Origin: Symmachiella dynata
GTDB lineage: Bacteria; Planctomycetota; Planctomycetia; Planctomycetales; Planctomycetaceae
DNA: 64,000 nucleotides
Direction: 5' to 3'
NCBI RefSeq assembly: GCF_007747995.1
Contig: NZ_CP036276.1
Span: 7,616,001 to 7,680,000 of the forward strand
The position numbers and the translations under genes are program-made. The notes beneath the pieces are model-generated. The model did no database searches, was not told where the DNA came from, and saw only the letters and a list, made by a program, of their open reading frames with translations. Positions 7,788-39,634 of the stretch are shown here, in pieces; the first letter of the stretch is position 1, and the number at the start of each line of letters is the position of its first letter.

Positions 7788-8021
7788 ATGCTTGTTTTGT
7801 CGAGACAACGCGACGAGAGCATCATCATCGGTGACAACATTGTGTTGACAGTCGTCGATATTCGCGGCGACAAAGTCCGTTTAGGCATTGATGCCCCCAA
7901 GGAAATCCCGGTTCATCGCCAGGAAGTCTACGAGGCCATCCAGCGCGAAAATCGCCGAGCTGCCGAACAGAGTTCCGATGATGGCGAAGCCGCGGCAAAG
8001 CCCGCGCCTTCAAAGAAGTAA
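7788..8021 (+). CDS. csrA: CsrA, translational regulator
   Basis: This 77-residue protein is CsrA (carbon storage regulator), an RNA-binding dimer that recognises GGA in mRNA leaders and usually blocks translation. The N-terminal [18 protein letters not shown], the central [17 protein letters not shown] and the EVYEAI segment are the family signature, including the VHR arginine used for RNA contact. The last 20 residues are an Ala/Lys/Pro/Ser-rich tail not needed for the fold. AAGGAG lies upstream of the ATG. The flagellin gene follows 560 bp downstream on the same strand. In Bacillus the CsrA-FliW pair represses flagellin (hag) translation, and the arrangement here suggests a similar control. 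No fliW gene is in the window. Confidence 0.95.
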
Positions 8022-8363
8022 GTCGAGGCCGTGGCTGCGATCAAAACGAATTCACAATCCTATGAATTCCGAATTCGCAACCAAAAAAAATCAAAACACA
8101 GATAAGTCTGCTAAATGCTGACAACACTGCGATTTGCATCACTGGTAACACGAAAACACGGATTGGGGATCGTACTGCTTAACGCATTACAAACACCGCA
8201 AGCGGAAAACTGTTACCAAAACTACCCATGTTAACTAAAGCATCAAGGTGATCGAGACGATACTCGATGAATAAGTCGAAGTCTCGCGCGAAAAATACCA
8301 TTGATGGTCTCACGCGTACTGGCAATAGAAATTGACAGTCAAAAACGTATGTGTGGGAAAAGT

Positions 8364-8391
8364 TAAAGCGACGTTTTCATTGTGCGTATTA
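8364..8391 (+). promoter_or_regulatory. Possible sigma-28-like flagellin promoter
   Basis: TTAAAG near 8363-8368 and GCGTATTA at 8384-8391 resemble the TAAA and GCCGATAA boxes of flagellar sigma-28 promoters, but spacing is one base long and the -10 box has several mismatches. A start just downstream would give a leader of about 190 nt. This is a weak candidate. The region 8022-8363 before it holds nothing else I could identify. Confidence 0.25.
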
Positions 8392-8429
8392 ATCTCGGCC
8401 CCCAATTGGCCAGCTTTCCTTCTGACAAA

Positions 8430-8574
8430 GGAAGCAAACCAGCATTACACGGAGTCGTGGGGTCGTTTGGTGAATCACTACTATTCCGTCAAGGAATGCG
8501 GAAACCACCTAGCAAACTCACGATTCCATCCCACCCGCTGAGAGCTGGTGAGGGATTAAACAAAGAAGGAAAGG
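8430..8574 (+). promoter_or_regulatory. Flagellin mRNA leader with six GGA motifs (putative CsrA target)
   Basis: GGA occurs at 8430, 8451, 8493, 8500, 8553 and 8568. The copies in ACAAAGGAAG and GTCAAGGAATG resemble the CsrA recognition core (A-N-GGA), and the last one lies inside the ribosome-binding site GAAGGAAAGG just before the flagellin ATG. CsrA bound there would block ribosome entry. csrA being the preceding gene makes this more likely, but binding is inferred. Confidence 0.5.
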
Positions 8575-8583
8575 CTGTTTGAC

Positions 8584-10788
8584 ATGACGAGGATCAACAC
8601 CAACGTTGCATCATTACGAGGCTTGAGGAGTGTCGAACGCGCCAATTCACTCCTTAACACTTCACTCCAAAGACTTTCAACCGGTGTGCAAATCAACTCC
8701 GGGAAAGACGACCCGGCCGGTTTGATCGCCAGTGAGACGTTGAAGTCTCAGATTGTCGCGATCGAAACGTCGATCAAGAATAGTAATCGCGCCAACAACG
8801 TGATCGCCACCGCCGACTCGGCGTTGGGCGAAATCAGCGGGTTGCTCAATCAGATCCGCGGCTTGGTCCAAGAAGGACTGAATACCGGTGCCCTGTCGCA
8901 AACGGAAATCGACGCGAACCAGTTGCAGATCGATTCCGCGCTGTCGGCCATCAACCGGATTTCCGCCAACGCGACCTTTGGTGGCGATAAGTTGATCGAC
9001 GGATCAAAATCGTTCACAACGCAACTCACCACGGCAAACTCAGCCAAAATCAGCGAGTTCCAAATCGACGAAGCGGTGTTCGGCTCCAGCTCGACAATCT
9101 TAGTCGATGCAACGATCACGACCGCAGCCGAAAAAGGATCACTCGTTTATACCGGTGGAGACCTGACCCAGGAAACCACGGTTGAAATTGCAGGCTCCGT
9201 CGGCAGCCAAGTGTTGTTCTTCGGTTCCTCCAGTACTTACGAAAACATTCGCGACGCTATCAACGCCGCGACCGACGTCACGGGTGTCGAAGCGACATTT
9301 GTCGACGACGCTGGGACTGCTGCGGCGACAGCTGGTACGGTGACCCTCGCAGCGACAGGTGCTGCCGCAACCGCCGGGACCGCCACGTTTACTTCCGCTG
9401 GTAATGAAAACGACTTGTCGTTTACAGCAGCGACCGCCGGAGCCTTTAGTGGAACGAACGCCGTTTCGGTCGTCTTCTCGCTGAACGCCGATACGAACGA
9501 TGCATCTTCGGTTTCAGTGACTGGTAACGAAATCACCATCTCACTGGAAAATGACACGAATGCTGCGTCGGTTGCCGTTGCATCGGACATCGAAGCATTG
9601 TTCAATGCCAATACGAACGCGACAGCCCTGGCCAGCATCAGCCTCCCGGATGACTCAGGGACAACCGGTTCAGGTGTTGTGTCGGGTGGTTTGACGAATG
9701 CAACGTTGAATAACGGGACCGAAAACTTCGATACCAACAACGACATCGTTATCACCAACGATACCTCAGGACTGCTGACCGGTACCAATATCCCGTCCGT
9801 CGCTTTCTCGCTGCAATCGGACAGCAACGACGGCACCTCGGTGAGTGTTTCGGGTTCCGCCATTACAGTTGCCTTGGCTGTTGACGCCACACAAACGGAC
9901 ACTTCCAGTGTCCAGGCTTCGGACGTGATTGCGGCAATCAATAGCAATACTTCCGCTGCTGCTCTTGTGACCGCTTCGAATGCCTCGGGCAATGACGGCT
10001 CTGGAGTCTTTAACTACACCTCTGCAGCGCAAACGATCAACGGAACGGATGCATCGTCAGGCAGCACTGCAGCGTTGACCCTCACGTCCCAGAACTTTGG
10101 GTCAGCTGAGTTCGTTGAAGTCAACGTCCTGGCTGGATCATTCGACACGTACGATTCCACAGGAACATCGGCCGTCCAAATCTCACGGGACTCCGGTACC
10201 GACGTCGTCGCCAATATCAACGGTCAAGTTGCTCAAGGGACCGGCCTGAAAGCCTCTGTCTCCAGTGCCAACTTGGTCGCCTCCTTGACCTTCAATGCGG
10301 TCAACAACGTGGCTGCTGAAACAGCTCAGATTACGATCACCGGCGGCGGCTCGCTGTTCCAGATCGGTCAAGAGGTTTCCGCTGCCGGCCAATTGGGCAT
10401 GGGGATCGAAGCGATCAACACGGCCCGTCTGGGTGGAATCTCGGGTAAGATTTACGAACTCGGCTCCGGCCGGGGCAAAAGCCTGAACGATGTTGGTCCC
10501 AACGTCACTGGTGCCGACTTGGTGAACATCATCGATGAATCGATTAACCGTGTCTCCAACCTGCGTGGCCGGTTGGGTGCGGTGCAAAAGAACGTGATCG
10601 AAACGAACATCACCTCGCTGGGTGTGGCTTTGGAAAACATTTCCGCCGCCCGTAGCGAAATCATCGATACCGACTTTGCCGCGGAAACGGCCCAACTGAC
10701 GAAGAGTCAAATCCTCTCGCAGGCGGCCATCTCCGTTTTGCAGATCGCCAATAACAACCCGCAGCAGGTCTTGACCCTCCTCGGTTAA
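8584..10788 (+). CDS. fliC: Flagellin with large Ser/Thr-rich central domain
   Basis: This 734-residue filament protein is about 1.5 times the common flagellin length. Residues 1-140 (INTNVASLRGLRSVERANS, LSTGVQINSGKDDPAGL) and about 590-734 (the SEIIDTDFAAETAQLTKSQI segment and ending PQQVLTLLG) are the conserved D0/D1 coiled-coil ends. The centre, residues 150-590, is rich in Ser, Thr, Asn and Ala with very few charged or aromatic residues. It contains two related units of about 100 residues, 276-378 and 386-489, both with a V-F-S-L / A-F-S-L strand, a DTNDASSVSV or DSNDGTSVSV turn and a SDIEALFNANT or SDVIAAINSNT helix. The ribosome-binding site is GAAGGAAAGG. A terminator follows, then five O-GlcNAc-transferase-like genes, so the centre is a plausible glycosylation substrate. 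Confidence 0.93.
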   Translation: MTRINTNVASLRGLRSVERANSLLNTSLQRLSTGVQINSGKDDPAGLIASETLKSQIVAIETSIKNSNRANNVIATADSALGEISGLLNQIRGLVQEGLNTGALSQTEIDANQLQIDSALSAINRISANATFGGDKLIDGSKSFTTQLTTANSAKISEFQIDEAVFGSSSTILVDATITTAAEKGSLVYTGGDLTQETTVEIAGSVGSQVLFFGSSSTYENIRDAINAATDVTGVEATFVDDAGTAAATAGTVTLAATGAAATAGTATFTSAGNENDLSFTAATAGAFSGTNAVSVVFSLNADTNDASSVSVTGNEITISLENDTNAASVAVASDIEALFNANTNATALASISLPDDSGTTGSGVVSGGLTNATLNNGTENFDTNNDIVITNDTSGLLTGTNIPSVAFSLQSDSNDGTSVSVSGSAITVALAVDATQTDTSSVQASDVIAAINSNTSAAALVTASNASGNDGSGVFNYTSAAQTINGTDASSGSTAALTLTSQNFGSAEFVEVNVLAGSFDTYDSTGTSAVQISRDSGTDVVANINGQVAQGTGLKASVSSANLVASLTFNAVNNVAAETAQITITGGGSLFQIGQEVSAAGQLGMGIEAINTARLGGISGKIYELGSGRGKSLNDVGPNVTGADLVNIIDESINRVSNLRGRLGAVQKNVIETNITSLGVALENISAARSEIIDTDFAAETAQLTKSQILSQAAISVLQIANNNPQQVLTLLG

Positions 10789-10823: not shown

Positions 10824-10862
10824 AAACGGCGTCATTTCTTCACCGAAATGACGCCGTTTTTT
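10824..10862 (+). terminator. Rho-independent terminator after flagellin
   Basis: A 14-bp perfect stem (AAACGGCGTCATTT at 10824-10837 with its complement at 10846-10859), an 8-nt loop and a T-run through 10862. It lies 36 bp after the flagellin stop codon. Confidence 0.92.
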
Positions 10863-11036
10863 CGTTGGTATTTCCAAGTCACATCATGCTGTAGCGGCGG
10901 CCTTGGTCTTGAGATACCCGTTGCCGGGAAAACTCGGCTCATTCCACACATTGCCCCTAGCCGATAAATTCATTACCGCCGCTCGAAGTCCGTGGCTGCG
11001 CCGTCGTTATGACTAAGCGGGAATAAAACAAGACAG

Positions 11037-11137: not shown

Positions 11138-13390
11138 ATGTTGACCACCTCAAAACAGGGCACGATGCCGCCGCGATTTACGAATCCGGCAGATCTGCAA
11201 AACGCGGAACGACTCTGCCGTCAGATTCTTCGCATCGAGCCTGCGCAGCGGGATGCGTGGCATTTGCTGGGTATCGTCGCACATAACCAAGGCCGCAATA
11301 GCGAAGGCGTCGACGCCATTCGCCATGCCATCGCGCTACCTGCAGCGAACCCTACCGCCTTAAACAACGAACCGGCTGCCCAACAAACACTGGATCGAGC
11401 CGTTAAATTGTATCGCGGCGCGCTGGAACAAGATCCGTCGAGTGCAGCGGTCTATTACGAATTGGGCCGTGAGCAATTAAAGGCCGGTCAATGCCAAGAG
11501 GCGATTTGCAGCCTCGAACATGCATTGGCGATTCGCGGTGACTGGACCGAAGCTCAGGAGGCATTGGCTGAAGCCTCTCTCAAAACTGGTCATGCTGAAC
11601 AACCGGTTGATCTGTTGCAAACAGCGAACCAGCACTATCAACTCGGTCGGACCCATTTCTCGCAGCAACGATTCCAATTAGCGGATCAAAGTTTTGCGGC
11701 TGCTCTGCAAATCGATCCAAATCATCAGGCAGCGTGGCATGATCGCGGCGCCGTTTTCTTAAATCAAGGAAAAATGGACGAGGCCCGACGGCACTTCGAC
11801 AAGACGCTCGCGCTCAATCCTCAACACGCCGATGCACTTTGCAATCTGGGGCTGATTCATCTATTGGACAACGAATTGGAGATCGCGCTCGATTATTGCC
11901 GTCGTTCGGTCAAAATAAATCCCCAGCATGCCAACACGCGTAACATTCTCGGAAATGTGCTCCGCGGACAGGGAAAACTGGGGGAGGCGGTCGCGGAATT
12001 TCAATGTGCGATCCAATTGAATCCCGCATTCACCGAAGCGCACAACAATTTGGCCCTTTCGTACCAAACCCAAGGCCGGATCGAAGAGGCTGTGGCGCAT
12101 TATCGCCAGGCGGCAGAAGTCCGCACCGACTGCGCCGCCACGCATAGCAATTTGTTGTTGAGCCTCTTTTACGTACCGGAGAATGATCGTGAGGCGCACT
12201 TTCGCGAACACGAAAAATGGGCCGCGGTGCATGGGCGGTGTTCGCAGATCGAGCACTACGAGAATTCGCGCGATCCCGACCGAAAACTCCGCATCGGATA
12301 CGTCTCACCCGACTTCCGGGCGCATCCGGTGGGAACATTTATCGAACCGATTCTCAAACTTCACCAAGCGGCGGACTATGAAATCACCTGCTACTCCAAC
12401 GTCACATCTCCGGATGAAGCAACAGCGCGATTTGAATCGCTCGTGGATCGTTGGCGGGTCACGAATTGGCAGAACGACGACGACCTAGCCGCGACGATTG
12501 TTGCCGATGGGATCGATATTCTCATCGATTTGGCGGGACATACCGCCGGAAACCGACTGGGACTCTTTGCCCGCAAACCAGCGCCGGTGCAAATGACCTA
12601 CTTGGGTTATGGCGGCACGACCGGCTTGGACACGGTGGACTATCGTTTGACCGATGCCGTCGCAGATCCTGCTGGAGAACCGGTCTCGCATACCGAGCAA
12701 CTCATCCGCTTACAGCACGGGCTATTGTGTTTTCAACCGCCGACCGCCGCGCCGCTGGTGGCCGAAGCGCCGCTACTGCGCAATGGATGGATCACTTTCG
12801 GGTCATTCAACAATCCCGCCAAAATCAATGCAAAGACTGTGGAACTGTGGGCTGATGTTTTAAAGAACGTACCGACCGCGCGTTTTCTGTTGAAATATCC
12901 GACGTTCAATGATTCCGAAACAGCGGACTACTACCGTGAACTGTTCGCTCGTCACGGGATCGCTCCGAGCCGCCTCGACATTCGCGGTGGAAAACTACCG
13001 TTCGATGAACATTTGGCGGTTTATGGCGAGATCGACATCATGTTGGACTCGCTGCCGTATACCGGTTCCACCACGACCTGTGAATCGTTGTGGATGGGCG
13101 TGCCGGTGCTCACGCTCTGCGGCGGAAGTTTTGTGCAGCGGATATCCGCTAGCATACTCACGCAATTGAACATGCCGGAATTAATCACTGCCACAGCGAC
13201 GGAATTTGTCAGTCGCGCCACACAACTTGCCGCTGCCACGGAAGATCTATCTCGAATTCGCCAAGCGATCCGCGAAGAAATGCGCGTCTCGCCGTTGTGC
13301 GATGCGGACGGTTACACGCGTGAATTGGAAACCGTTTACCGCCGGGCATGGCAACGGTGGTGTCACCACAATCGACAATCTCCTCAATGA
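11138..13390 (+). CDS. TPR + O-GlcNAc-transferase-like (GT41/SPINDLY) protein 1
   Basis: This 750-residue cytoplasmic protein has about six or seven tetratricopeptide repeats (residues about 20-340, with repeat cores such as ALCNLGLIHLLDNELEIAL) and, from residue about 383, a glycosyltransferase family 41 catalytic half. Motifs in order are LRIGYVSPDFRAHPVG (catalytic His region), IDILIDLAGHTAGNRL, GYGGTTGLDTVDYRLTD, ITFGSFNNPAKIN and the nucleotide-sugar loop YTGSTTTCESLWMGVPVLTL. GT41 enzymes transfer GlcNAc (or fucose in plant SPINDLY) from a nucleotide sugar to Ser/Thr. It is the first of five adjacent paralogues after flagellin and ends in an ATGA overlap with the next. The start at 11138 has only a weak ribosome-binding site; ATG 11165 is an alternative. 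Confidence 0.85.
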   Translation: MLTTSKQGTMPPRFTNPADLQNAERLCRQILRIEPAQRDAWHLLGIVAHNQGRNSEGVDAIRHAIALPAANPTALNNEPAAQQTLDRAVKLYRGALEQDPSSAAVYYELGREQLKAGQCQEAICSLEHALAIRGDWTEAQEALAEASLKTGHAEQPVDLLQTANQHYQLGRTHFSQQRFQLADQSFAAALQIDPNHQAAWHDRGAVFLNQGKMDEARRHFDKTLALNPQHADALCNLGLIHLLDNELEIALDYCRRSVKINPQHANTRNILGNVLRGQGKLGEAVAEFQCAIQLNPAFTEAHNNLALSYQTQGRIEEAVAHYRQAAEVRTDCAATHSNLLLSLFYVPENDREAHFREHEKWAAVHGRCSQIEHYENSRDPDRKLRIGYVSPDFRAHPVGTFIEPILKLHQAADYEITCYSNVTSPDEATARFESLVDRWRVTNWQNDDDLAATIVADGIDILIDLAGHTAGNRLGLFARKPAPVQMTYLGYGGTTGLDTVDYRLTDAVADPAGEPVSHTEQLIRLQHGLLCFQPPTAAPLVAEAPLLRNGWITFGSFNNPAKINAKTVELWADVLKNVPTARFLLKYPTFNDSETADYYRELFARHGIAPSRLDIRGGKLPFDEHLAVYGEIDIMLDSLPYTGSTTTCESLWMGVPVLTLCGGSFVQRISASILTQLNMPELITATATEFVSRATQLAAATEDLSRIRQAIREEMRVSPLCDADGYTRELETVYRRAWQRWCHHNRQSPQ

Positions 13391-15516
13391 ATATTCGCAC
13401 CCCAACGACATTCATGAACGAGAACCGTGACCTCTTTAAAGTCGCGTTCGAAAATCATCAAGCAGGGCGACTCGGTGAAGCCGAAGGCCTGTATCGTAGC
13501 GTGCTGCGCGTAGATCCGGCTCATACGGATGCCCTGCATTTGTTGGGAGTCGTCGCCCACCAATCGGGTCGGCATCAAATAGCTGTGGAAATGATCCAGC
13601 GAGCGATCGCAATCAACGGAAACAATCATCTCTATCACAGCAACCTGGGTGCCAGCCAACTGGCCATGGGGCGGCTGGGCGATGCGATTGCCAGTTGCCG
13701 ACGGGCGGTCGAATTGGCTCCCAACTACGCAGCCGCACAGTTCAATTTGGCCCGCGCCTACCAAGCTGCCGGTGAGACTGCAGCTGCGGAAGCGGGTTAT
13801 CGCCGCACATTGCAGGTCGATCCCCGGCATGCGGAATCGCGGCTGAATTTAGGGAACCTGTTGTTCGACCGGGGCGAGATTCAAGCCGCGATTGTGGAGT
13901 TTCGCGCGTCCGTTCAATGCAATCCCAACTTTGCGTATGCGCATTATAATCTTGGAAATGCCTTACTTGAAATCGGACGGACCGACGAAGCGATTGCCTG
14001 TTTGCAAACAACGATCCAACTCAAACCGGACTACGCTGAGGGATACAACAATCTGGGCAATGCCTACCGCAGCCGCGATCAACTTGATGAAGCCCTGACA
14101 TTCTTCACCACAGCCTGCCGACTCAACCCTCAACATGCGATTGCGCACAACAATCGCGGCTCGGTTTTACAATCTCAGGGATGTCTAGCCGAAGCGTTTG
14201 CGGCCTATACACGGTCACAACAAATCGCGCCGGCCGATGCAGCCACGCATAGCAACGCTCTGGTCGCAGCGAATTATCTCGCAGAGCAGTCGCCGCAGGA
14301 GCTGTTTCAGCGACATCGCGATTGGGCTGAGCAACATGCGGTGGACTGTCCGCCAAGACAATTTCTCAACGTGGCTGATCTGGAGCGTCGATTGCGGATC
14401 GGATATGCGTCGCCCGATTTTCGCACGCATCCAGTGGCCTCTTTCTTTTTGCCGTTGCTGCAGCAACATGACCGCACTGTTGTCGAAGTGACCTGCTACA
14501 GCAATACCCCTCGCCCGGATCGCATGACCGCCCAGTTCGAAGCAGGTGCGGACCGTTGGCGGGACGTTCGCCGTTGGAGCGACGAGCAGATGGTGCAAGC
14601 TGTACTCGCCGACGAGATCGATATTCTGGTCGATTTGGCCGGGCATACAGCCCATAACCGATTGCAAGTCTTCGCACAAAAGCCGGCGCCGGTGCAAGTT
14701 AGTTTTTTGGGATATCCCAATACGACCGGTTTGCCGACGATCGACTACCGCATCACCGACGGGATTGCCGACCCTGCGGGCGAAGCACGGACGCACAGTG
14801 AAACATTGATCCGACTGCCCGGGCCATTTTGTTGTTATGCGCCGCCAAATATTGACGTCGAGGTTCGCTCGTTGCCCGCGGACCGGAAGGGCTATGTGAC
14901 GTTTGGGTCGCTACACAACTTGGCGAAACTCAATCCGCAGGTCGTCGAAACCTGGAGTGCCGTATTGCGCAGCGTGCCACAATCGCGGTTGCTGATTGCT
15001 CGATCGACGTTGTCGCGGTCCTCGGCCGAACGTTTATCTGCTGAGTTTGCTGAACGGGGAATCGCGACAGGACGGATCGATTTCCGCCAACTCTCTACGG
15101 CAGAAGGCAGCTATATGCGTGTCTATGATGAGATCGATGTCATCCTCGATGCGTTTCCTTGGAGCGGCCACACGACCACTTGCGAAGCTCTCTGGATGGG
15201 GGTCCCGGTCCTCACGCTCCGCGGCAATCGACACGCCGGTCGCATGGGAGCCAGTTTGCTAACGCACATTGGACTGCACGAATGGATCGCTAAATCGCGG
15301 GAAGACTACGTGTCTCAAGCAGCGACACTGGCTACGGATGTGGCTGCTCTGCGTAGCCTGCGAAGTTCCTTGCGTGACCGATTTTTAACGTCGCCCCTCT
15401 GCGACGCGCGGCGCTACGCTGCCAACATGGAAGAGGCTTACCGCAGCATGTGGCGACGTTGGTGTCCTGTAGAGACGTCGTTTGTCATTGATACTTGCGA
15501 GCAAATTTTACGATGA
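13387..15516 (+). CDS. TPR + GT41/SPINDLY-like protein 2
   Basis: This protein of about 709 residues has roughly eight TPR units (residues about 15-300) and a catalytic half starting near residue 332 (LRIGYASPDFRTHPVAS). Its ATG at 13387 overlaps the preceding TGA as ATGA, the sign of translational coupling; ATG 13414 is an alternative. The donor-site loop reads PWSGHTTTCEALWMGVPV, whereas the other four paralogues have P-Y-T/N-G-(S/A)-TTTCE. The GH pair recalls the NGHTT loop of eukaryotic OGT, so donor or acceptor choice may differ. The catalytic half also carries GYPNTTGLPTIDYRITD and TFGSLHNLAKLN. It probably modifies Ser/Thr in the cytoplasm, with flagellin the obvious candidate substrate by position. 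Confidence 0.85.
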   Translation: MNIRTPTTFMNENRDLFKVAFENHQAGRLGEAEGLYRSVLRVDPAHTDALHLLGVVAHQSGRHQIAVEMIQRAIAINGNNHLYHSNLGASQLAMGRLGDAIASCRRAVELAPNYAAAQFNLARAYQAAGETAAAEAGYRRTLQVDPRHAESRLNLGNLLFDRGEIQAAIVEFRASVQCNPNFAYAHYNLGNALLEIGRTDEAIACLQTTIQLKPDYAEGYNNLGNAYRSRDQLDEALTFFTTACRLNPQHAIAHNNRGSVLQSQGCLAEAFAAYTRSQQIAPADAATHSNALVAANYLAEQSPQELFQRHRDWAEQHAVDCPPRQFLNVADLERRLRIGYASPDFRTHPVASFFLPLLQQHDRTVVEVTCYSNTPRPDRMTAQFEAGADRWRDVRRWSDEQMVQAVLADEIDILVDLAGHTAHNRLQVFAQKPAPVQVSFLGYPNTTGLPTIDYRITDGIADPAGEARTHSETLIRLPGPFCCYAPPNIDVEVRSLPADRKGYVTFGSLHNLAKLNPQVVETWSAVLRSVPQSRLLIARSTLSRSSAERLSAEFAERGIATGRIDFRQLSTAEGSYMRVYDEIDVILDAFPWSGHTTTCEALWMGVPVLTLRGNRHAGRMGASLLTHIGLHEWIAKSREDYVSQAATLATDVAALRSLRSSLRDRFLTSPLCDARRYAANMEEAYRSMWRRWCPVETSFVIDTCEQILR

Positions 15517-17897
15517 CCGAAGTGGTTTCAGAATTGCGTGAAGCGTTTGACAGGCACCAGGCTGGTGACCTGCCGCAAGCGGAACGTCTGTACCGGGCAG
15601 TCTTGCAGGACGATCCCACACACGGCGAGGCGCTGCATTTGTTGGGTGTGCTCGCGCACCAAAGCGGTAACGCCACGGCTGCGATGGACTTGATCGGCCG
15701 CGCGGTGCAACACGTCGATCCACCGCGGGCGATGATGTACAGCAACCTGGGCGCCGCGCATCAGGCAACCGGCGATTTCGACATGGCGATCACACACTAT
15801 CGCCGCGCTGTACAATTGCAGCCTGACTTTGCCGATGCCCAGCACAATCTCGCAACCGCATTCGCGGCACAAGGCAATCACGATCAGGCCGTCGGCGCCT
15901 ACCAACAATTGCTCGCAACGCATCCCCAGCATCGCGCCGGCTGGACGAATCTCGGCAAATCACTCCAAAACCTCAAGCGGTATGAAGAGGCGGCGCAGTG
16001 TCACCGAACGGTGCTCGACAATCATCCTGACGATTGTGAAGCGTGGCTGAATTTGGGAGTGGTACAGGCATCGTTAGGGCAACTGGACGCGGCAGCGGAC
16101 TGTTTCTCCCAACTGTTGAAACGTGCACCGCAACATGCCCTAACGCACTTCAATCTGGGCCGGATCCGCCAGGACCAAGGCCGACTCAAGGAGGCGGTGT
16201 CACACTATCGTCAAGCGGTCCAATGCGACACAGCCTACGTCGATGCCTGGAACAATCTCGGCGTGTCACTGAAATCTCTGCAACAGTTTGCCGAAGCCGA
16301 AACATGCTTCCGGAACATCGTGACCCTGTCGCCAAACTCTGCGACGGCCCACTTCAATCTAGGCAACGTGCTCCGCGCGCAAGACCGGTTTCAGGAAGCG
16401 GCCGCAAGTTATCGCCAAGGACTGCAGTTGGATCCGCAGCATGTCGAGTCCTACATCAATCTGGGGACAGCTTTGACGTCGGCGGGAGATTTCAGCGCTG
16501 CGGAGCATTCCTACCGCACAGCGCTGCAGGCTTGTCCTCAATCGATCGAAGTTCATCTAAATTTGGCATCCGTTCTGCAACTGCAGGGACGTATGGACGA
16601 GGCTGCGGCGGTCTATGAACGGGCGGAGGAAATTGATCCGACCTGTGAGGCCGTCAAGAGCAGTGCCCTCATGCTGCCGTTGTATCAACCAAATATCTCG
16701 CAAACAGAGATTCTTCGCCGACACTGTGAATGGGGTGCGCGGCTGTCGAGTTTGGCCGCAGCGGATTCATCATTCAACCACGACTGCAATCCGCAGCGTC
16801 GTTTGCGAATCGGATATGTCTCGCCCGACTTTCGCATGCATCCGGTCGGGTTTTTCATGGAATCGATCCTGCGAAACCACGACCGTGAGCGTTTTGACGT
16901 AACGTGCTACGCCGAACATCGTGACGACGATCATGTGACGGATCGTTTGCGGCCTTTGTCGCACGCTTGGCGATCGACGTGTGGGCGGACGGATGACGAT
17001 GTGGCGCGGATGATTCGCGACGATCAAATCGATATTCTCATTGACCTAGCTGGTCACACGTCGGGCAATCGGCTGGCGGTCTTCGCCCGTCGTCCCGCGC
17101 CGGTGCAAATGACCTACTTGGGATACGGGACCACGACCGGATTAGCAGCAGTCGATTATCGGATCACCGACGCCATCGCCGACCCGCCCGGAGAAACCCA
17201 CGGACATGCCGAAGAACTTCTGCGCGTTCCCGGTGGAATCCTCTGTTACTCACCACCGCCGAATGCGCCCGAAGTGGTCTCGCTACCGGCGCTACAGAGC
17301 GGACAGGTTACGTTCGGTTCGTTCAACAAACTGAGCAAACTGAGCCAACCGACCCTCGACGTCTGGGCAGCTGTCCTGCAGGCGGTCCCCGCGTCTCGAC
17401 TGATCCTCAAAAACCGCTCATTCGCCAACGACACCGTCTGCGCACGTTATGTCGCGGAATTCGCAGCACGGAACATTGACGTCGACCGCATTGAACTGAT
17501 TGGCCCCACGGATTCAATCACGGAACATTTGGAGCTCTATGGCCGTATCGATGTGGCATTGGATCCATTTCCATACAACGGGGCGACGACGACGTGTGAA
17601 GCGTTATGGATGGGTGTCCCCGTGATTTCTCTTCGCGGTAATGCGTTTGTCGAGCGAATGACGGCGTCGTTGCTGACCACAGTTGGATTGACCCAGTTCA
17701 TCGTTGAATCACGGGAAGAATACGTCGCCGCCGCATGTCGCTGGGCAGATTCGATCCAACCATTGGCGGAGCTGCGACAACGACTGCGCTGCATGGCGAG
17801 TGAGTCCCCGCTGTGCGATGAACCGGCCTACGTGCGCGGATTGGAAGAACAGTATCAAGCAGCGTGGCAACGGTGGTGTGCGACACCGGTTGTGTGA
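15513..17897 (+). CDS. TPR + GT41/SPINDLY-like protein 3 (longest TPR array)
   Basis: At about 794 residues this is the longest of the five paralogues. Around eleven TPR units fill residues 5-400, then the catalytic half begins near residue 427 (LRIGYVSPDFRMHPVG), followed by IDILIDLAGHTSGNRL, GYGTTTGLAAVDYRITD, TFGSFNKLSKLS and YNGATTTCEALWMGVPVISL. The ATG at 15513 overlaps the previous stop codon as ATGA; the frame continues upstream to 15495 without a better start. The catalytic half is the same length as in the sister genes (about 367 residues), so only the TPR superhelix, which selects protein substrates in OGT, has changed in size. Confidence 0.85.
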   Translation: MTEVVSELREAFDRHQAGDLPQAERLYRAVLQDDPTHGEALHLLGVLAHQSGNATAAMDLIGRAVQHVDPPRAMMYSNLGAAHQATGDFDMAITHYRRAVQLQPDFADAQHNLATAFAAQGNHDQAVGAYQQLLATHPQHRAGWTNLGKSLQNLKRYEEAAQCHRTVLDNHPDDCEAWLNLGVVQASLGQLDAAADCFSQLLKRAPQHALTHFNLGRIRQDQGRLKEAVSHYRQAVQCDTAYVDAWNNLGVSLKSLQQFAEAETCFRNIVTLSPNSATAHFNLGNVLRAQDRFQEAAASYRQGLQLDPQHVESYINLGTALTSAGDFSAAEHSYRTALQACPQSIEVHLNLASVLQLQGRMDEAAAVYERAEEIDPTCEAVKSSALMLPLYQPNISQTEILRRHCEWGARLSSLAAADSSFNHDCNPQRRLRIGYVSPDFRMHPVGFFMESILRNHDRERFDVTCYAEHRDDDHVTDRLRPLSHAWRSTCGRTDDDVARMIRDDQIDILIDLAGHTSGNRLAVFARRPAPVQMTYLGYGTTTGLAAVDYRITDAIADPPGETHGHAEELLRVPGGILCYSPPPNAPEVVSLPALQSGQVTFGSFNKLSKLSQPTLDVWAAVLQAVPASRLILKNRSFANDTVCARYVAEFAARNIDVDRIELIGPTDSITEHLELYGRIDVALDPFPYNGATTTCEALWMGVPVISLRGNAFVERMTASLLTTVGLTQFIVESREEYVAAACRWADSIQPLAELRQRLRCMASESPLCDEPAYVRGLEEQYQAAWQRWCATPVV

Positions 17898-17923
17898 TCG
17901 TCGAATTCGGTTAGGAGAGTTCC

Positions 17924-20209
17924 ATGGATGGACAACCTGTCACAATTCAAGCGGCTGTCGCGCTGCATCAAGCAGGAGCGTGGGACCGCGCCGCTCAGGC
18001 GTACGAACAAATCCTGACTGCCGATCCGCAAAACGTTGATGCGCTGCATCTCACCGGTGTCATTGCTCATCAACGGGGAGAGTACGAAGACGCGATTCGG
18101 TGGATTCAACGCGCGCTGCAACTGCGCCCGCGGAACGCCACCTTTCACAACAATCTGGGCAATGCGTTCCAAGCCGTCGGCCGTTATGACGCTGCCGAAC
18201 AACACTTTCAAACCGCTTTGGAAATCAGCCCCCAATCTGTTGATGCCCGTTTCAACCTCGGCGCACTCCGTCAGGAACAAGGCCAGTGGAATGCCGCCCT
18301 GGCTGAATTTGCCGCAGTCGTTCGCCAACAACCCGGTATGGCCAAGGCCTATCATCGGCTCGGTATGATCTTCAAACGTCAGGGGCAACTCGCCGAAGCT
18401 GAGCGATGCCTCAGCGAAGCATTGGTGCACGACCCCGACTTCGATGAAGCCGCTTTGCTACTCGCCAAAACGCATTGCGCGGCAGGCCGTACAGATGAAG
18501 CGCTCGAACAGTTTGAGCGGTTGTGTGCAAAATCCCCCCAACAAATTGACGCCCATTTTGAATTGGCTGCGACGCTACTGGATTGCGGGCGATACGATGA
18601 AGCGATTGTGCAACTGAGCAATGTGATCCAGCGCGCGCCGGAGCATGCTCGCGCTCATCATCACTTAGGGGTCGCCCATCTGCGGCGCCTGCATTTGACC
18701 GAGGCCGAGGTATGCTTTCGAGAAGCAGTCCGCTTGCGCCCCGATTTTGCGATGGCACACAACAGTCTGGGCAGCCTGTTGCGCGAACGGGGCGAATTGT
18801 CAGCAGCGGCTGACTGTTTTTCAGAATCGTTCCGCCTACTCCCACAAGCTGCCGAGCCCCGCGCCAACTTGGCAGGCATACTCCAATTACAAGGCCGACC
18901 CACCGAGGCAATCGCCGCCTATCGCAGCGCACTCCAAATCGACGACAGCTCCGCGCGGATTCATAGCAATCTGTTGATGACTCTTCACTACGATCCTGAA
19001 CTGTCCGCCGAAGAGATTTTTGAGGAGCATCAACGTTGGTCCCGACGACACGTGGTTCCGACAGCGGCAGCTCCGCGACTGAAGAACAATCCTCTGCAGT
19101 CACGTCCGCTACGAATCGGATATCTCTCCGCTGATTTTCGCGCACATTCCGTCGCCTCTTTCATCGAACCCTTGTTGAAGGCCCACGACCGCCGCGCAGT
19201 CCACGTGAGCTGTTACTCCGACGTGACGGCTCCCGACGATGTGACCGTCCGGTTGAAAACCCATGCCGATACTTGGCGAGATGTGCAAGGAAAAACCGAC
19301 CAGGAAGTTCTCAAGATGATCATCGACGATGAAATCGACATCCTCGTCGACCTGGCGGGGCACACCGGTGGTAATCGGCTGCAAGTCCTCGCGCAGCGGG
19401 CCGCCCCGGTGCAAATCACGCATCTGGGTTATGGCGGTACAACGGGGATCCCTGCGATCGACTATCGCCTGACTGACGTCGTCGCCGATCCGCCCGGTGA
19501 GTCGCGACGGCATGTCGAGGAGTTGGCCTATCTTCGCAGCGGAATCTTTTGTTATGCCCCCCCACTGAATGCCCCGCCGGTGGCGCCCGCGCCCTGTCTC
19601 GAAAACGGTTACGTCACGTTCGGCTCATTTAACAATCTCGCCAAGATCAACAGCAGCGTGGTGAAACTGTGGGCGGCCATTCTTCACGACATGCCGACCA
19701 GCCGGCTGTTCATGAAAAGCCATTCATTCCTCGATGCCGCTACCCGTGAGGACTTTCTCCGGATGTTCTCACAACACGGCATCAATCCCGCGCGGCTCGA
19801 CCTATTGGGACAGGTTGCAACATTGCGAGAACATTTGGAACTGTACGGCCGCATCGATATTGCGTTGGACTCATTCCCTTATACCGGCGCCACCACGACC
19901 TGCGAGTCGCTGTGGATGGGCGTTCCCGTGGTGACATTGCGCGGACATCAATACGTCGGCCGATTGTCCGCCAGTCTACTGACGCAAATCGGTTGCCCGG
20001 AATTGATCGCAGAGACACCACAGGCCTATCAAGAGATCGCCTGCACGTTGACGGAGAATTTGCCGCGATTAGGGAATGTTCGCACGCAATTGCGAGAACA
20101 AATGGCACAATCACCGGTCTGTGATGCAGCGAACGCAGCCCGGGAGATGGAGACGTTGTATCGCGACATGTGGCAACGTTGGTGTCGGGGCAATCGTAAG
20201 GCAGGTTAG
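17924..20209 (+). CDS. TPR + GT41/SPINDLY-like protein 4
   Basis: This 761-residue protein has about ten TPR units (residues 5-360) and a catalytic half from residue about 394. The first catalytic motif is LRIGYLSADFRAHSVAS, with Ala and Ser where sisters have Pro. Later motifs are IDILVDLAGHTGGNRL, GYGGTTGIPAIDYRLTD, TFGSFNNLAKIN and YTGATTTCESLWMGVPVVTL. The start is preceded by TAGGAGAG at a good distance, 26 bp after the previous stop, so it stays in the same operon. The likely role is transfer of a nucleotide-activated sugar to Ser/Thr of a protein, flagellin being the positional candidate. Confidence 0.85.
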   Translation: MDGQPVTIQAAVALHQAGAWDRAAQAYEQILTADPQNVDALHLTGVIAHQRGEYEDAIRWIQRALQLRPRNATFHNNLGNAFQAVGRYDAAEQHFQTALEISPQSVDARFNLGALRQEQGQWNAALAEFAAVVRQQPGMAKAYHRLGMIFKRQGQLAEAERCLSEALVHDPDFDEAALLLAKTHCAAGRTDEALEQFERLCAKSPQQIDAHFELAATLLDCGRYDEAIVQLSNVIQRAPEHARAHHHLGVAHLRRLHLTEAEVCFREAVRLRPDFAMAHNSLGSLLRERGELSAAADCFSESFRLLPQAAEPRANLAGILQLQGRPTEAIAAYRSALQIDDSSARIHSNLLMTLHYDPELSAEEIFEEHQRWSRRHVVPTAAAPRLKNNPLQSRPLRIGYLSADFRAHSVASFIEPLLKAHDRRAVHVSCYSDVTAPDDVTVRLKTHADTWRDVQGKTDQEVLKMIIDDEIDILVDLAGHTGGNRLQVLAQRAAPVQITHLGYGGTTGIPAIDYRLTDVVADPPGESRRHVEELAYLRSGIFCYAPPLNAPPVAPAPCLENGYVTFGSFNNLAKINSSVVKLWAAILHDMPTSRLFMKSHSFLDAATREDFLRMFSQHGINPARLDLLGQVATLREHLELYGRIDIALDSFPYTGATTTCESLWMGVPVVTLRGHQYVGRLSASLLTQIGCPELIAETPQAYQEIACTLTENLPRLGNVRTQLREQMAQSPVCDAANAAREMETLYRDMWQRWCRGNRKAG

Positions 20210-20268
20210 AGAGTTCTTGAAGCCGAGAGAGCAAACAGGCATCGGAAAAGCGGACCGGAGAATTCGGT

Positions 20269-22287
20269 ATGGCGTTGAACTACAAACTACATGCTCCTGC
20301 AGCAAACGCGGCTGCTGATTTGTCGGGACACTTTCTGCGCGGCAATGAATCGTTGGCCGCCGGTGACTATCGACAAGCGGCGGAGTGTTACCATCAAGTA
20401 CTGGCGGTATCGCCCGATTTGGCCGAGGCGCACAACAATTTGGGTGTCGCCCTCAAACGACTGCAGCAATTCGATGACGCCGGTATTGCGTTTCAGCGCG
20501 CCGTCGCCGCGCGCCCCGATTTTGTGGATGCCTACGTCAATCTCGGCGACACATTGCGGCAGTTAGATCGCCTGGAAGAGGCCCGTATCTGCCTACAAGC
20601 GGCCCTCGATATCGATCCCACCTGCCCGGCCGCTTACAACAATCTGGGCATCGTGCATCGGCGATTAGGAGACAACGAAGCGGCGATCCAGTTTTTTCAA
20701 CGGGCACTCCATCTGCAACCCAATCACGCCAGCGCAGCCGACAACTTAGGGAACGTGCTAGCGCAAACAAACCGCCTGGAGGAAGCTGAAGCCCAATTCG
20801 CTCAAGCGGCCTGCAGCGACGCGCAGTCACTCAGTGCGCACAATCACATGGGACTATTGCGGCAACGACAAGGACGTTTGCGCGAAGCGGAACAGGAATT
20901 TCAAACGGCGATTCAGCTCGATGCAAGCTATGCGACGGCGCACCTCAATTTGGGCGTGCTCTATCTCTATGAAGGCCGAGTACAGGAGGCACAGCATTGT
21001 TTTCGGAAAACGCTGCAACTCCAACCGCAATTCATCAAAGCGCATAGCAATCTGCTGATTTCGCTCGGATACGATCCCGGCGTCGACCTGGATGAGTTAT
21101 TTGCTGAACATCTCCGTTGGCAACAGCAACATGCCGCCGATGTTCCTCACATCACAACGCATGCGAATTCGCCTCAGCCGCGACGGCGTTTGCGCATTGG
21201 GTATATTTCAATCGATTTTCGCCGTCATCCGGTGGCGTCGTTCATTGAACCGATTTTGAAATTGCGTAACCCTTCTGAGGTCGAGGTCGTTTGCTATAGC
21301 GATGTCCCTGCGCCTGATGCGGTAACTGAACGTTTAGAAACGTTGGCGGATGAGTGGCACAACGTCGCCGGCATAGCGGATACGGAACTCGTTGAGCGGA
21401 TTCAACAAGACGGCATCGACGTGCTCGTCGATTTGGCGGGGCATACCGCTGGAAATCGACTGATGGTCTTCGCCCAAAAACCGGCGCCGGTACAGTTTTC
21501 GATGCTGGGATACGGCAACACGACCGGGTTAACCACAATCGATTGCCGCATCACCGATGCCATCTGCGACCCGCCGGAGGAACCCTGCCGACACACCGAA
21601 ACGCTGGTCCGCATTCCCTCGGGAAGCTTTACCTTTGCCCCGCCACAAACCGCACCCGATGTGCAGCCGCCGCCGGCGCTGAAGAACCGATATGTCACAT
21701 TTGGTTCGTTCAACAACCTCGCGAAAATCGGGCCGGATGTGATCGCCGTTTGGGCTGAAATTCTGGCGGCGATTCCCAACAGTCGCCTACGCTTAAAAAA
21801 CGGGGCGCTGGGGGACGAGAAGGTGCGCCAGCGATATCAGGAACTGTTCCGGCAACATCACATCCCGGCAGAGCGGATTCTCTTTCAAGGATTCGTCGAA
21901 TCAGCAGAGGAACATCTAGCGGCGTATCACGATGTCGATGTCGCGCTCGACCCCTTCCCCTACACCGGTGCAACGACCACTTGCGAAGCTCTTTGGATGG
22001 GCGTGCCGGTGGTCACTCTGCGCGGCACGAATTACGTCGGCCGCATGTCCGCCGGCATTTTGAACCAAACCGGCTACGGATACTTAACCGCTGCGTCGAA
22101 ACCACAATACGTTTCGACAGCCATCGGGATTGCCAGCGACGTCGCCCAGCTCAGCGAAATCCGCAACGATTTACGTCAGCAACTGCAATCCTCGTCGCTC
22201 TGCCAACCGGAATCGATCGTCGCAGAAATCGAAGCCGCATACCGCACCGCTTGGCAACACTGGTGCCAAACACAAGTAGACGCCTAA
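20269..22287 (+). CDS. TPR + GT41/SPINDLY-like protein 5 (shortest)
   Basis: This 672-residue protein is the last and shortest of the five, with about seven TPR units (residues 20-280) and a catalytic half from residue about 304: LRIGYISIDFRRHPVAS, IDVLVDLAGHTAGNRL, GYGNTTGLTTIDCRITD, TFGSFNNLAKIG and YTGATTTCEALWMGVPVVTL. Sequence CRITD replaces the YR(I/L)TD of its sisters. It starts 59 bp after gene 4 with CGGAGAA before the ATG. No clear terminator follows in the 110 bp before the convergent neighbour. Same inferred role as the others. Confidence 0.85.
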   Translation: MALNYKLHAPAANAAADLSGHFLRGNESLAAGDYRQAAECYHQVLAVSPDLAEAHNNLGVALKRLQQFDDAGIAFQRAVAARPDFVDAYVNLGDTLRQLDRLEEARICLQAALDIDPTCPAAYNNLGIVHRRLGDNEAAIQFFQRALHLQPNHASAADNLGNVLAQTNRLEEAEAQFAQAACSDAQSLSAHNHMGLLRQRQGRLREAEQEFQTAIQLDASYATAHLNLGVLYLYEGRVQEAQHCFRKTLQLQPQFIKAHSNLLISLGYDPGVDLDELFAEHLRWQQQHAADVPHITTHANSPQPRRRLRIGYISIDFRRHPVASFIEPILKLRNPSEVEVVCYSDVPAPDAVTERLETLADEWHNVAGIADTELVERIQQDGIDVLVDLAGHTAGNRLMVFAQKPAPVQFSMLGYGNTTGLTTIDCRITDAICDPPEEPCRHTETLVRIPSGSFTFAPPQTAPDVQPPPALKNRYVTFGSFNNLAKIGPDVIAVWAEILAAIPNSRLRLKNGALGDEKVRQRYQELFRQHHIPAERILFQGFVESAEEHLAAYHDVDVALDPFPYTGATTTCEALWMGVPVVTLRGTNYVGRMSAGILNQTGYGYLTAASKPQYVSTAIGIASDVAQLSEIRNDLRQQLQSSSLCQPESIVAEIEAAYRTAWQHWCQTQVDA

Positions 22288-25071: not shown

Positions 25072-26226
25072 TTACGACTCATTTTTCGTCTTTTGCATTT
25101 TTTCAGCCAGACGGGACATTACGAGATCAACGTCCAAGTTGGGTGTACCGAGCCGGCCATAGTATCGCGAGAACCCCGCGAGCATAGATTCTGCAAATGG
25201 GCTATCAAGCGAGGCAACTCGATTGTCTAGCGAAAGTTTTTCCGTCGGAACTTGCTTCAACGCCTGGAAATCGACGACCAAATCAGGAAATCGGAACGTA
25301 CCTGCAAGGAATCTATATCGCTCACGTTGGCCCGAGCGATTATCCCCGATCAGGCTTTTCAGTTTTTTGAGCACATTATTGGATGGATCTTCTTTTTTGT
25401 GAATCGAATCGCTGTAATCTTTAAACTCTGTTTGCTCTGAAAGCAAACCGCATTTTGCAAGAAGTGTTTGGTGAGCTTTTCCTTGTTCAAAATCGCACGA
25501 CGGCGTCAAAACAATCCAGTACTCCTCCTTTTCGCTGACGGTGAGAAAAAGCAAGTCTCCAGCAAGTAATTCAGGGTTATTCGGCGGAATGACGTACATT
25601 TCCATCGGATGCACAACACTCAAGTCATTCGGGGTCGGCGCGGCTTGTCCATGATCCGTCAAGAAGCGACGGATCGACTCACGACTCAGCGTGCTCGCCA
25701 ATCGCCGAGCAAGAAGCATAGAAATATCGGTCTGCTCATTGCTCCTATTCATATCCGTCCAGTGATGGTCGACGAACTCCCACATATATATACGCAATTC
25801 TTCGTTCAGGTGACGTAATAACTGAGGCAGCTTGGTCGAGAATAACGCTTGAACCGCAACTCTTAGATCACGTGGTGAATCCCGACTCACCACTCGAACA
25901 AACGGATTACTGATATCGTCAACTTTCTGCGGATAAGCAGTAAAGAAAATGACTGGAACGAATCGTCTTTCGCGTATCTGCTCGTAAACTTGCAACCCTG
26001 GCAAGATACTCTCATCTTCCAATTCAATGGAGTCGTCTCGAAGATCGAGGACAACCAAGTCAACTCGCTGAGAATCAAGCACTGAAAATGCTTGGTCAAA
26101 TTGATCGCAAATTCTACACTCTGCTAGAGCATCAGGAAAAACGCCTTCGACGGATAAAAGCTCACTAACATCGTCACCTTGGCTGTCGTCGACAATTAGC
26201 ACGCGCCAAGTCGTATTGGGCACCAT
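25072..26226 (-). CDS. Receiver-domain protein with unassigned C-terminal domain
   Basis: This 384-residue protein begins with a response-regulator receiver domain (residues 1-130): the acidic pair in VLIVDDS (Asp13, Asp14), the phospho-acceptor Asp61 in VVLDLRDD and Thr96 in VIFFTAYP. The conserved lysine expected near residue 114 is replaced (VVSRDSP), so phosphorylation or signalling may be unusual. Residues 150-384 are not a DNA-binding helix-turn-helix that I can recognise. They include YWIVLTPSCDFEQGK and a conserved-looking VVDFQAL stretch, possibly an effector domain. It starts 2 bp after the kinase-like gene and is third in the operon after the methyltransferase. The A+T content is clearly higher than in the surroundings. 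Confidence 0.75.
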   Translation of the reverse strand: MVPNTTWRVLIVDDSQGDDVSELLSVEGVFPDALAECRICDQFDQAFSVLDSQRVDLVVLDLRDDSIELEDESILPGLQVYEQIRERRFVPVIFFTAYPQKVDDISNPFVRVVSRDSPRDLRVAVQALFSTKLPQLLRHLNEELRIYMWEFVDHHWTDMNRSNEQTDISMLLARRLASTLSRESIRRFLTDHGQAAPTPNDLSVVHPMEMYVIPPNNPELLAGDLLFLTVSEKEEYWIVLTPSCDFEQGKAHQTLLAKCGLLSEQTEFKDYSDSIHKKEDPSNNVLKKLKSLIGDNRSGQRERYRFLAGTFRFPDLVVDFQALKQVPTEKLSLDNRVASLDSPFAESMLAGFSRYYGRLGTPNLDVDLVMSRLAEKMQKTKNES

Positions 26227-26228
26227 CT

Positions 26229-28490: not shown

Positions 28491-28509
28491 AATCTTCTTC
28501 GCTAATAGG

Positions 28510-29511
28510 TCACGCTTGTCTTGTTAAACCCCTCACCGCGGCTCGCATCACAGGCGGGCAAACGGCATTACCAAGCAACTTAATACTATCACGCCGACTA
28601 CTAGTTTTGACAGAGAACTTCATAGGCATACCCATGGCAGCCTTTAATTCCGGCACCTGAAGCATTCGCATAAAATGCTGTGCCTTCTTAACTTTTACAT
28701 ATGCAAAACGGTCAAGCGTAGTAATAGTTCGTAAGGGACGTGTAAGCCGCTGCCATCCTCCTGCATGATCGCTACCGTAGTATACGATTAGAAATGGGCG
28801 TTTCGTTCCCACGACATCCATCGCCCTCTCGGCGCGTGCCAACGTCGCGTCTGCTCTTCCAGGCTGTCGCAATGGCGTGAATCTGTACTCGCTATTTTTG
28901 ACAATGATGCTTGAGGCTGGAATGGGAAACGCGAAATTGGATGTGATCGATGCCGGTTCGCGTTCTCGATCACAAAGAAGAAACAGTCTACGTCGCGTCT
29001 GTGGCACACCGAAAAGCGACGAATCAAGCACCTGTGGGCTAACGTGATAGCCGAGTCCTATGAGATCATCCAGGAACTCGTCGTAGCGTGACCAGTTACG
29101 CATATTCACAACATTTTCCACGATGATCCAACGGGGCTCAAATACTTTGGCAAAGCGTATTACATGAAAGGCTGTTTCCTTGCTTTTCTCGCAACGCGGA
29201 CTATTGCCTTTAGCAGGACTGTGGTTGGTGCACTCTGGTGACGCAATCAAGAGGTTAATGTCTTTTATTTCACTTCTCAACTGCCGGTTGGTCCAGTCTT
29301 CCAGTCGCCCCTCAAAAAACCATGCGTCTGGAAAATTGGCAGAGTACGCATCACCTGCGATATCCCATTTATCGAATCCTGCGACGACCTCGGCACCAGC
29401 GAGTTTGGCCCCCCAGCTGCTTCCACCTGCGCCGCAGAATAAATCGATGGCCCGAACTCCTGCTGAATTGTTTATGCTCGTCCTCACCATATTCGCCTTC
29501 TCCAATGTCAA
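28510..29511 (-). CDS. C5-cytosine DNA methyltransferase
   Basis: This 333-residue enzyme methylates cytosine at C5 in a specific DNA site. Motif I is AIDLFCGAGGSSWG (residues 21-34), motif VI is VENV (131-134), motif VIII is QTRRR (171-175) and motif X ends in GNAVCPP. Motif IV, which holds the catalytic Cys (Cys94), reads SPECTNHS rather than the usual PPCQ form. It has a short target-recognition region for the family. It is first in a three-gene operon with the kinase-like and receiver genes; no restriction endonuclease gene is visible. ATG codons at 29511 and 29490 are both possible starts. Regional base composition suggests horizontal acquisition. Confidence 0.9.
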   Translation of the reverse strand: MTLEKANMVRTSINNSAGVRAIDLFCGAGGSSWGAKLAGAEVVAGFDKWDIAGDAYSANFPDAWFFEGRLEDWTNRQLRSEIKDINLLIASPECTNHSPAKGNSPRCEKSKETAFHVIRFAKVFEPRWIIVENVVNMRNWSRYDEFLDDLIGLGYHVSPQVLDSSLFGVPQTRRRLFLLCDREREPASITSNFAFPIPASSIIVKNSEYRFTPLRQPGRADATLARAERAMDVVGTKRPFLIVYYGSDHAGGWQRLTRPLRTITTLDRFAYVKVKKAQHFMRMLQVPELKAAMGMPMKFSVKTSSRRDSIKLLGNAVCPPVMRAAVRGLTRQA

Positions 29512-39567: not shown

Positions 39568-39634
39568 GCTCGTTGCTGTGATACAACCAAGTTTGATTTC
39601 ACGCAACAATTTGGTCCTATCAGGAGCAACGAGC
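39568..39634 (+). ncRNA. Bridge-RNA-like hairpin 5' of the IS110 transposase
   Basis: GCTCGTTGCT (39568-39577) pairs perfectly with AGCAACGAGC (39625-39634). Inside, GATA pairs with TATC and ACCAA with TTGGT, leaving a large loop. It ends right at the transposase ATG and part of the ribosome-binding site AGGAG is in the 3' arm. It could be part of the IS110 bridge RNA (which guides recombination and lies in the left noncoding end in the IS110 subgroup) or a translation-control hairpin. Confidence 0.45.

Follow-up and report, generated by a model that had tools for sequence, protein, structure and literature searches.

SPINDLY (SPY), the plant nucleocytoplasmic protein O-fucosyltransferase of glycosyltransferase family 41 (GT41), joins a superhelix of tetratricopeptide repeats (TPRs) to a GT41 catalytic domain, and SPY-like genes are described as widespread, including in bacteria, with very few of them characterised (PMC10027727). 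Flagellin is described as being O-glycosylated on Ser/Thr by Maf glycosyltransferases (PMC7591256, PMC11339370), and FlmG of Caulobacter crescentus is presented as a soluble TPR plus GT-B flagellin O-glycosyltransferase, with the TPR part responsible for flagellin binding (PMC7591256). Here we analyzed 64,000 nucleotides of Symmachiella dynata (contig NZ_CP036276.1, positions 7,616,001 to 7,680,000; hereafter the window, with positions counted from its first letter), in which five TPR-GT41 genes (the array, 11138-22287, + strand) lie downstream of a flagellin gene. A first-pass annotation had read the array as a flagellin O-glycosylation system, which our analysis suggests is likely right in outline, and had missed that the five enzymes appear to split into two donor-pocket types.

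The locus shares with FlmG, its precedent as far as the published description goes, the TPR plus GT-B architecture and the link to flagellin. By that description FlmG is one enzyme that serves six flagellins with pseudaminic acid made via NeuB, whereas here five enzymes accompany one flagellin and no true NeuB was found in the genome, where the sole PF03102 (NeuB) match, at 41 bits, is presumably a DAHP synthase. The control genome of Caulobacter vibrioides also matches PF13844, the Pfam model of GT41. Like SPY, the array enzymes combine a TPR superhelix with a GT41 catalytic domain; unlike SPY, they come as five tandem paralogs beside flagellin, vary at S496, A731 and T747 (SPY numbering throughout, unless stated), and include one enzyme, that of gene 2, with Ala689/Tyr728/Trp744/His747. 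Metazoan OGT, XcOGT and TtOGT share the GT41 fold, gene 2 aligning with them at VIA Z 29.8-46.2, and the lysine at OGT K842/SPY K665, while none of the five array enzymes has Arg at the place of metazoan OGT R904 or Cys at that of C917.

Results

Five TPR-GT41 genes in tandem

The presence of five TPR plus GT41 genes downstream of flagellin, all on the + strand, was borne out by open reading frame (ORF) coordinates, Pfam and TPRs. They are gene 1 (11138-13390, 7 TPRs), gene 2 (13387-15516, 8), gene 3 (15513-17897, 10), gene 4 (17924-20209, 10) and gene 5 (20269-22287, 7), with N-terminal TPRs in all five, counted by a simple motif. The spacing described earlier also holds, with ATGA overlaps joining genes 1-2 and 2-3 (the starts of genes 2 and 3 being placed at the ATGs of these overlaps) and gaps of 26 bp after gene 3 and 59 bp after gene 4. 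The flagellin, of 734 aa with Pfam Flagellin_N and Flagellin_C, occupies 8584-10788 (+) and ends 349 bp before gene 1.

The SPINDLY-like assignment was supported at the levels of Pfam, sequence matches in the PDB and predicted fold. All five proteins match PF13844 at 178.9-192.3 bits (cut-off 25), and their GT domains are 47-52% identical to each other. For genes 2, 3 and 4, which the PDB comparison covered, the best match was plant SPY, ahead of human OGT and TtOGT. The structure model of gene 2 (pLDDT 92.4, pTM 0.88) aligned with SPY over 690 residues (VIA Z 51.4, rmsd 5.6; Foldseek E 2.5e-52) and with TtOGT at VIA Z 46.2. The catalytic Lys (SPY K665/human OGT K842) and His (SPY H495) are retained in all nine GT41 proteins of the genome.

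This genome is a single 7.77 Mb contig, and its other GT41 genes are a tandem trio at 3.66 Mb (L021:8458-14350), with K689/Y744 and present in all three genus genomes, and a singleton at 1.84 Mb (L022:7365-11335). Next to the singleton lie an FkbM methyltransferase and a 354-aa protein that matches nothing in Pfam or NCBIfam. There are two Flagellin_N matches, the flagellin of the window and a protein at 1.906 Mb that is FlgL by NCBIfam, so that the genome encodes one flagellin.

The earlier claim that five copies in a row are exceptional stands in so far as five is the largest array met in this analysis, and needs tempering in that the genome has a second tandem set, the trio, and 12 of 79 related public loci (the best 79 of 553 relatives, some records sharing a genome) contain three or four GT41 ORFs, a count that leaves overlapping ORFs unmerged and is therefore a maximum. 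A literature search over titles and the starts of abstracts, with partial coverage and thus no proof of absence, found no description of tandem GT41 arrays beside flagellin.

Two types of donor pocket

As described for SPY, GDP-fucose is contacted by K689 and H728 at the guanine, T748 and E752 at the ribose, and N662 and K665 at the pyrophosphate, while S496, K665, Y744 and T747 contact the fucose (PMC10027727; see also PMC9715652). Activity is reported to be abolished by K689A, K665A, Y744A and E752A, with 10% left in T747A and 30% in S496A, and K689, A731 and Y744 are given as the SPY signature residues (PMC10027727).

Aligned to SPY, genes 1, 3, 4 and 5 carry K665, K689, H728, Y744, T748 and E752, and their K689 and Y744 are also found in the orthologs of two further genomes of the genus, G023 and G061. 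The K689/Y744 pair occurs in eight of the nine GT41 proteins of the genome, including the trio and the singleton, the exception being gene 2. Gene 2 retains D491, H495, K665, T748 and E752 and differs at A689, Y728, W744 and H747, four residues that are identical in all three genus genomes (G023, G061 and our own, G000), and it fails the SPY signature (A689, W744) and the OGT signature alike. Because K689A kills SPY, we predict that GDP-fucose is not the donor of gene 2. A DNA pattern for its pocket (FPWxGHTTT, then TG) was run over a sample of 392 genomes of the phylum and matched our own only; G023 and G061 are outside that sample, and with F and P held constant the pattern passes over variants. 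The GT41 of L083, from a genome of another genus (G014), has W744/H747 and departs at D491, H495 and K665 in the same alignment.

For genes 1, 3, 4 and 5 the donor reading is weak overall, and GDP-fucose is no more than a fair guess, as a number of observations tell against it. Position 731 is Val, Leu, Leu and Ala in genes 1, 3, 4 and 5, with the OGT-type Arg in none of them. Position 747 is Ser, Ala, Ala and Ala, so T747 is in none, and position 496 is Pro, Pro, Ser and Pro, leaving S496 in gene 4 only. Lacking these fucose contacts (gene 4 excepted for S496), the four enzymes are therefore not classed as SPY-clan members. K689/Y744 is also common in bacterial GT41s, since among the 79 public loci it was found in 64/106 rows of loci without flagellin, compared with 17/19 rows near flagellin (rows being ORFs of more than 350 aa, with overlaps unmerged). 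The GT41s near flagellin in other genera of the family are mixed, with two K/Y in G010, K/F in G026 and neither residue in G038 and G042, and for XcOGT and TtOGT, with their Tyr744, the donor is given as unsettled (PMC9715652).

Two pocket types within one array would also fit five enzymes that worked in sequence on one glycan. One or two of them would start a chain on Ser/Thr, and the remaining enzymes, including gene 2, would extend it, so that a short heteropolymer would form in place of five site-specific single sugars. The GT41-like ApHMW1C is reported to make glucose-glucose linkages as well (PMC9715652), a precedent of sorts; SPY and OGT, on the other hand, are described as adding single sugars (PMC9715652, PMC10027727), and all five enzymes have the 7-10 TPRs expected of enzymes that grip proteins. 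We consider such a sequential pathway distinctly unlikely.

TPR parts and the acceptor side

The ladder of Asn at position 6 of the TPRs differs between genes: Asn is found in 9/10 repeats of gene 3, 6/8 of gene 2 and 5/7 of gene 5, and the ladder is degenerate in gene 1 (2/7) and gene 4 (3/10). The strings of position-6 letters are the same or nearly the same in the G023 orthologs of genes 1, 2, 3 and 5, and 6 of 10 letters are equal for gene 4. Such gene-specific ladders, largely kept by the ortholog, fit distinct acceptor grooves. Between G000 and G023 the TPR parts are 49-59% identical and the GT parts 61-66%.

On the flagellin side, G000 and G023 share 77% identity in the centre and 95-97% at the ends, and 103 of the 128 Ser/Thr positions of the centre remain Ser or Thr. 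The first-pass annotation had taken the Ser/Thr-rich centre as evidence of O-glycosylation, and this argument did not hold: all 20 flagellins compared have 20.9-28.4% S+T in this part, whether a GT41 gene lies nearby or not, while 261 other ORFs average 11.7% (sd 3.3). The 20 flagellins come from 19 of 22 regions meant to contain one, as L058, L069 and L075 yielded no flagellin ORF under the ORF filter used and were dropped. Richness in Ser/Thr was rejected as a diagnostic, being a general trait in the family.

Age of the duplications

The plan of nine GT41 genes in sets of five, three and one is found in all three genus genomes, and the five-gene array follows a 734-aa flagellin in G023 and G061 too. 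In a tree of GT domains (39 recognised in the fetched regions, L081 contributing none), each of the nine GT41s of our genome pairs with a G023 gene, with support of 100/98 to 100/100 in eight pairs and 97/98 for the singleton; G061 orthologs were assigned by best BLAST match, and the G061 array proteins share 88-94% identity with ours along the alignment. The GT domains of the array are 61-66% identical to their G023 orthologs and 47-52% to their paralogs, with the gene order kept. Together with the nine pairs of the tree, this indicates that the duplications predate the split of G000 and G023, which is what the phylogeny proposed in the first-pass annotation was meant to date. Genes 1, 3, 4 and 5 cluster with the trio in a group confined to the genus, at a support of 84/87 that falls short of the starred level, and gene 2 groups with L083 (96/88).

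The same data speak to the possibility that the paralogs are largely redundant and merely raise the enzyme dose for a long flagellin. Their core residues are indeed the same, but copies kept for dose alone would not be expected to resemble their orthologs more than each other while holding their order, nor to have gene-specific donor pockets and Asn ladders that are kept, or largely kept, by the ortholog. Redundancy is the reading that we find most improbable.

Transcription of flagellin and array

The first-pass annotation had placed flagellin and array in one operon, which is doubtful, since the 349 bp gap holds a terminator-like hairpin and then a promoter-like block, both conserved. The hairpin (10824-10859, +) resembles an intrinsic terminator, with a 15-pair stem followed by a T run, and is kept in G061 and G023; in G023 the two arms of the stem carry compensatory base changes. 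Its stem is the longest among 21 terminator-like sites in the scan of the region, a count that is itself not above shuffles (18.9), and the same script found a terminator-like hairpin downstream of 7/20 flagellins. A single operon with flagellin was thus rejected as stated, given a strong terminator-like hairpin kept in three genus genomes.

The promoter-like block upstream of the array, CTCATTCC-N14-GCCGATAA (10938-10967, +), reads CTCATWCC-N14-GCCGATA across the three genus genomes, where it lies at -178, -159 and -88 from gene 1. The best ungapped match between the upstream regions of G000 and G023 scored 25, and 200 shuffles reached at most 15. Of the evidence for an array promoter, this conservation of the block is the only part that we regard as strong: the window has 3 copies of GCCGATAA (1.83 expected), the two-part pattern, at most 2 mismatches being allowed, has 10 genome matches compared with 7 for a reversed control, and a sigma-70 scan gave 1 site against 7.4 in shuffles. 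We take GCCGATAA to resemble a sigma-28 -10 element, a label that is unproved and that for the array promoter was set aside as a mere suggestion, as the single-site consensus score is not above shuffles (at least 10 in 23/300).

The flagellin has an element of its own, TAAAGCATCA...GACGATA (8236-8265, +; -348 from the ATG, its end approximate), which we presume to be sigma-28-like and which lies in a block aligned in the three genus genomes; TAAA-N15-17-GNCGAT was found upstream of 5/20 flagellins (shuffle mean 0.06). Because of the conserved hairpin, the promoter-like block of the array and the separate element of flagellin, the array is probably a separate transcription unit.

If the conserved element is the flagellin promoter, a leader of about 320 bases (8260-8583) is possible. 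A GGA-bearing stretch ahead of the flagellin ATG is kept in the genus, and the adjoining gene is csrA (carbon storage regulator, 7788-8021, +, NCBIfam csrA above cut-off), making CsrA control of flagellin translation plausible.

Linkage of GT41 genes and flagellin

In a family sample of 61 genomes, our own included, 48 have Flagellin_N matches and 31 have GT41, in 55 clusters counted by hand. Six of these clusters (in G000, G023, G010, G026, G038 and G042) have a Flagellin_N match no more than 10 kb away where 0.39 were expected, with a Poisson probability of 3.6e-6, of 4.0e-5 with the genus counted once, and of 5.5e-4 when G042 (gap of about 8 kb) is also left out, under a model that treats positions as random and ignores broken assemblies. 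The proposed link between GT41 and flagellin is thus above simple expectation in the family and takes the form of adjacency in all three genus genomes. Other arrangements were seen in G010, where two GT41 genes flank the flagellin with one ORF intervening on each side, and in G038, where a 1401-aa protein directly after flagellin (L056:9686-13891) combines TPRs, a divergent GT41 and methyltransferase domains. Of the 79 public loci, 12 have a flagellin-like ORF in the flank (both halves in 10, the N half only in 2), a count with no matched control, and the flagellin-bearing loci span several phyla, including one unclassified Planctomycetota record.

Alternatively, the array could act on other proteins, cytoplasmic or exported, with the flagellin neighbourhood being historical. 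The trio and the singleton have no flagellin nearby; the five array genes form no clade apart from the trio, flagellin-linked and unlinked paralogs intermixing in the tree; the conserved terminator-like hairpin splits flagellin from the array; and 11 of the 12 public loci with at least three GT41 ORFs have no flagellin in the flank examined. In the family, 49/55 GT41 clusters are away from flagellin, and in 25/31 GT41-bearing genomes every GT41 gene lies more than 10 kb from any Flagellin_N match, although broken assemblies may hide some. All of this counts against flagellin as the acceptor, as does the loss of the Ser/Thr-rich centre as a diagnostic. Maf enzymes, which are not known to belong to GT41, are represented by no PF01973 match in this genome, and this, like the lack of a true NeuB, favours the array as the flagellin-modifying system; the caution is that archaeal genomes were the only controls to match PF01973, so that the reach of the model for bacterial Maf is not established. 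The association of array and flagellin in 3/3 genus genomes and a family linkage that exceeds expectation even with the genus counted once speak against a purely historical neighbourhood, and we consider other targets unlikely.

Other features of the window

A three-gene set on the - strand (25072-29511), where the local G+C falls to 0.48, includes a cytosine-5 DNA methylase whose best PADLOC match is DrmMII. Its second protein has two HATPase domains and an N-terminal part weakly like type II restriction enzyme models, and its third is receiver-like, under the Pfam cut-off. The set is possibly a defence or restriction-like unit. A match to DUF1501, DUF1559 in a relative and the closest public relatives all point to a planctomycete. 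In the window, an ORF at 39578-40648 (+) resembles, by eye, an IS110-type transposase.

Discussion

Taken as a whole, the best explanation of the locus is a cytoplasmic five-enzyme array for flagellin O-glycosylation with at least two donor types, to which we give slightly better than even confidence. Under this explanation, five cytoplasmic TPR-GT41 O-glycosyltransferases would modify a single flagellin on Ser/Thr ahead of its export, and the TPR grooves would differ in the stretch of flagellin, or the state of its glycosylation, that they present. Genes 1, 3, 4 and 5 would use one type of donor, most likely a GDP-sugar such as GDP-fucose, in view of the K689 and Y744 that they have in common with SPY, and gene 2 would use another nucleotide sugar. 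The array would be a unit with a promoter of its own, timed with flagellin and free of read-through from it.

Formation of GDP-fucose takes two steps, one of which is carried out by GDP-mannose dehydratase. Two GDP-mannose dehydratases lie above the curated cut-off in the genome, which covers this one step and makes a GDP-fucose precursor feasible.

Relative to what is described of TPR-GT flagellin glycosylation by FlmG, five enzymes per flagellin and two pocket types appear to be new. A more specific version of the array explanation is a combinatorial one, in which four of the enzymes would be SPINDLY-like O-fucosyltransferases and the fifth, with A689/Y728/W744/H747, would have a new donor specificity, each TPR groove reading a different part of flagellin. 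We think it unlikely in this full form. If true, it would give SPY-like protein O-fucosylation a bacterial home on an exported protein, and the logic of FlmG, one enzyme for many flagellins, would be reversed to many enzymes for one flagellin.

For the sugar and the target of bacterial GT41s the array is a tractable case, as it offers one secreted acceptor candidate, four enzymes with two of the donor-choosing residues of SPY, and one natural, conserved variant at these positions. For the organism itself, our findings suggest a flagellum that probably bears an unusually elaborate coat of sugars.

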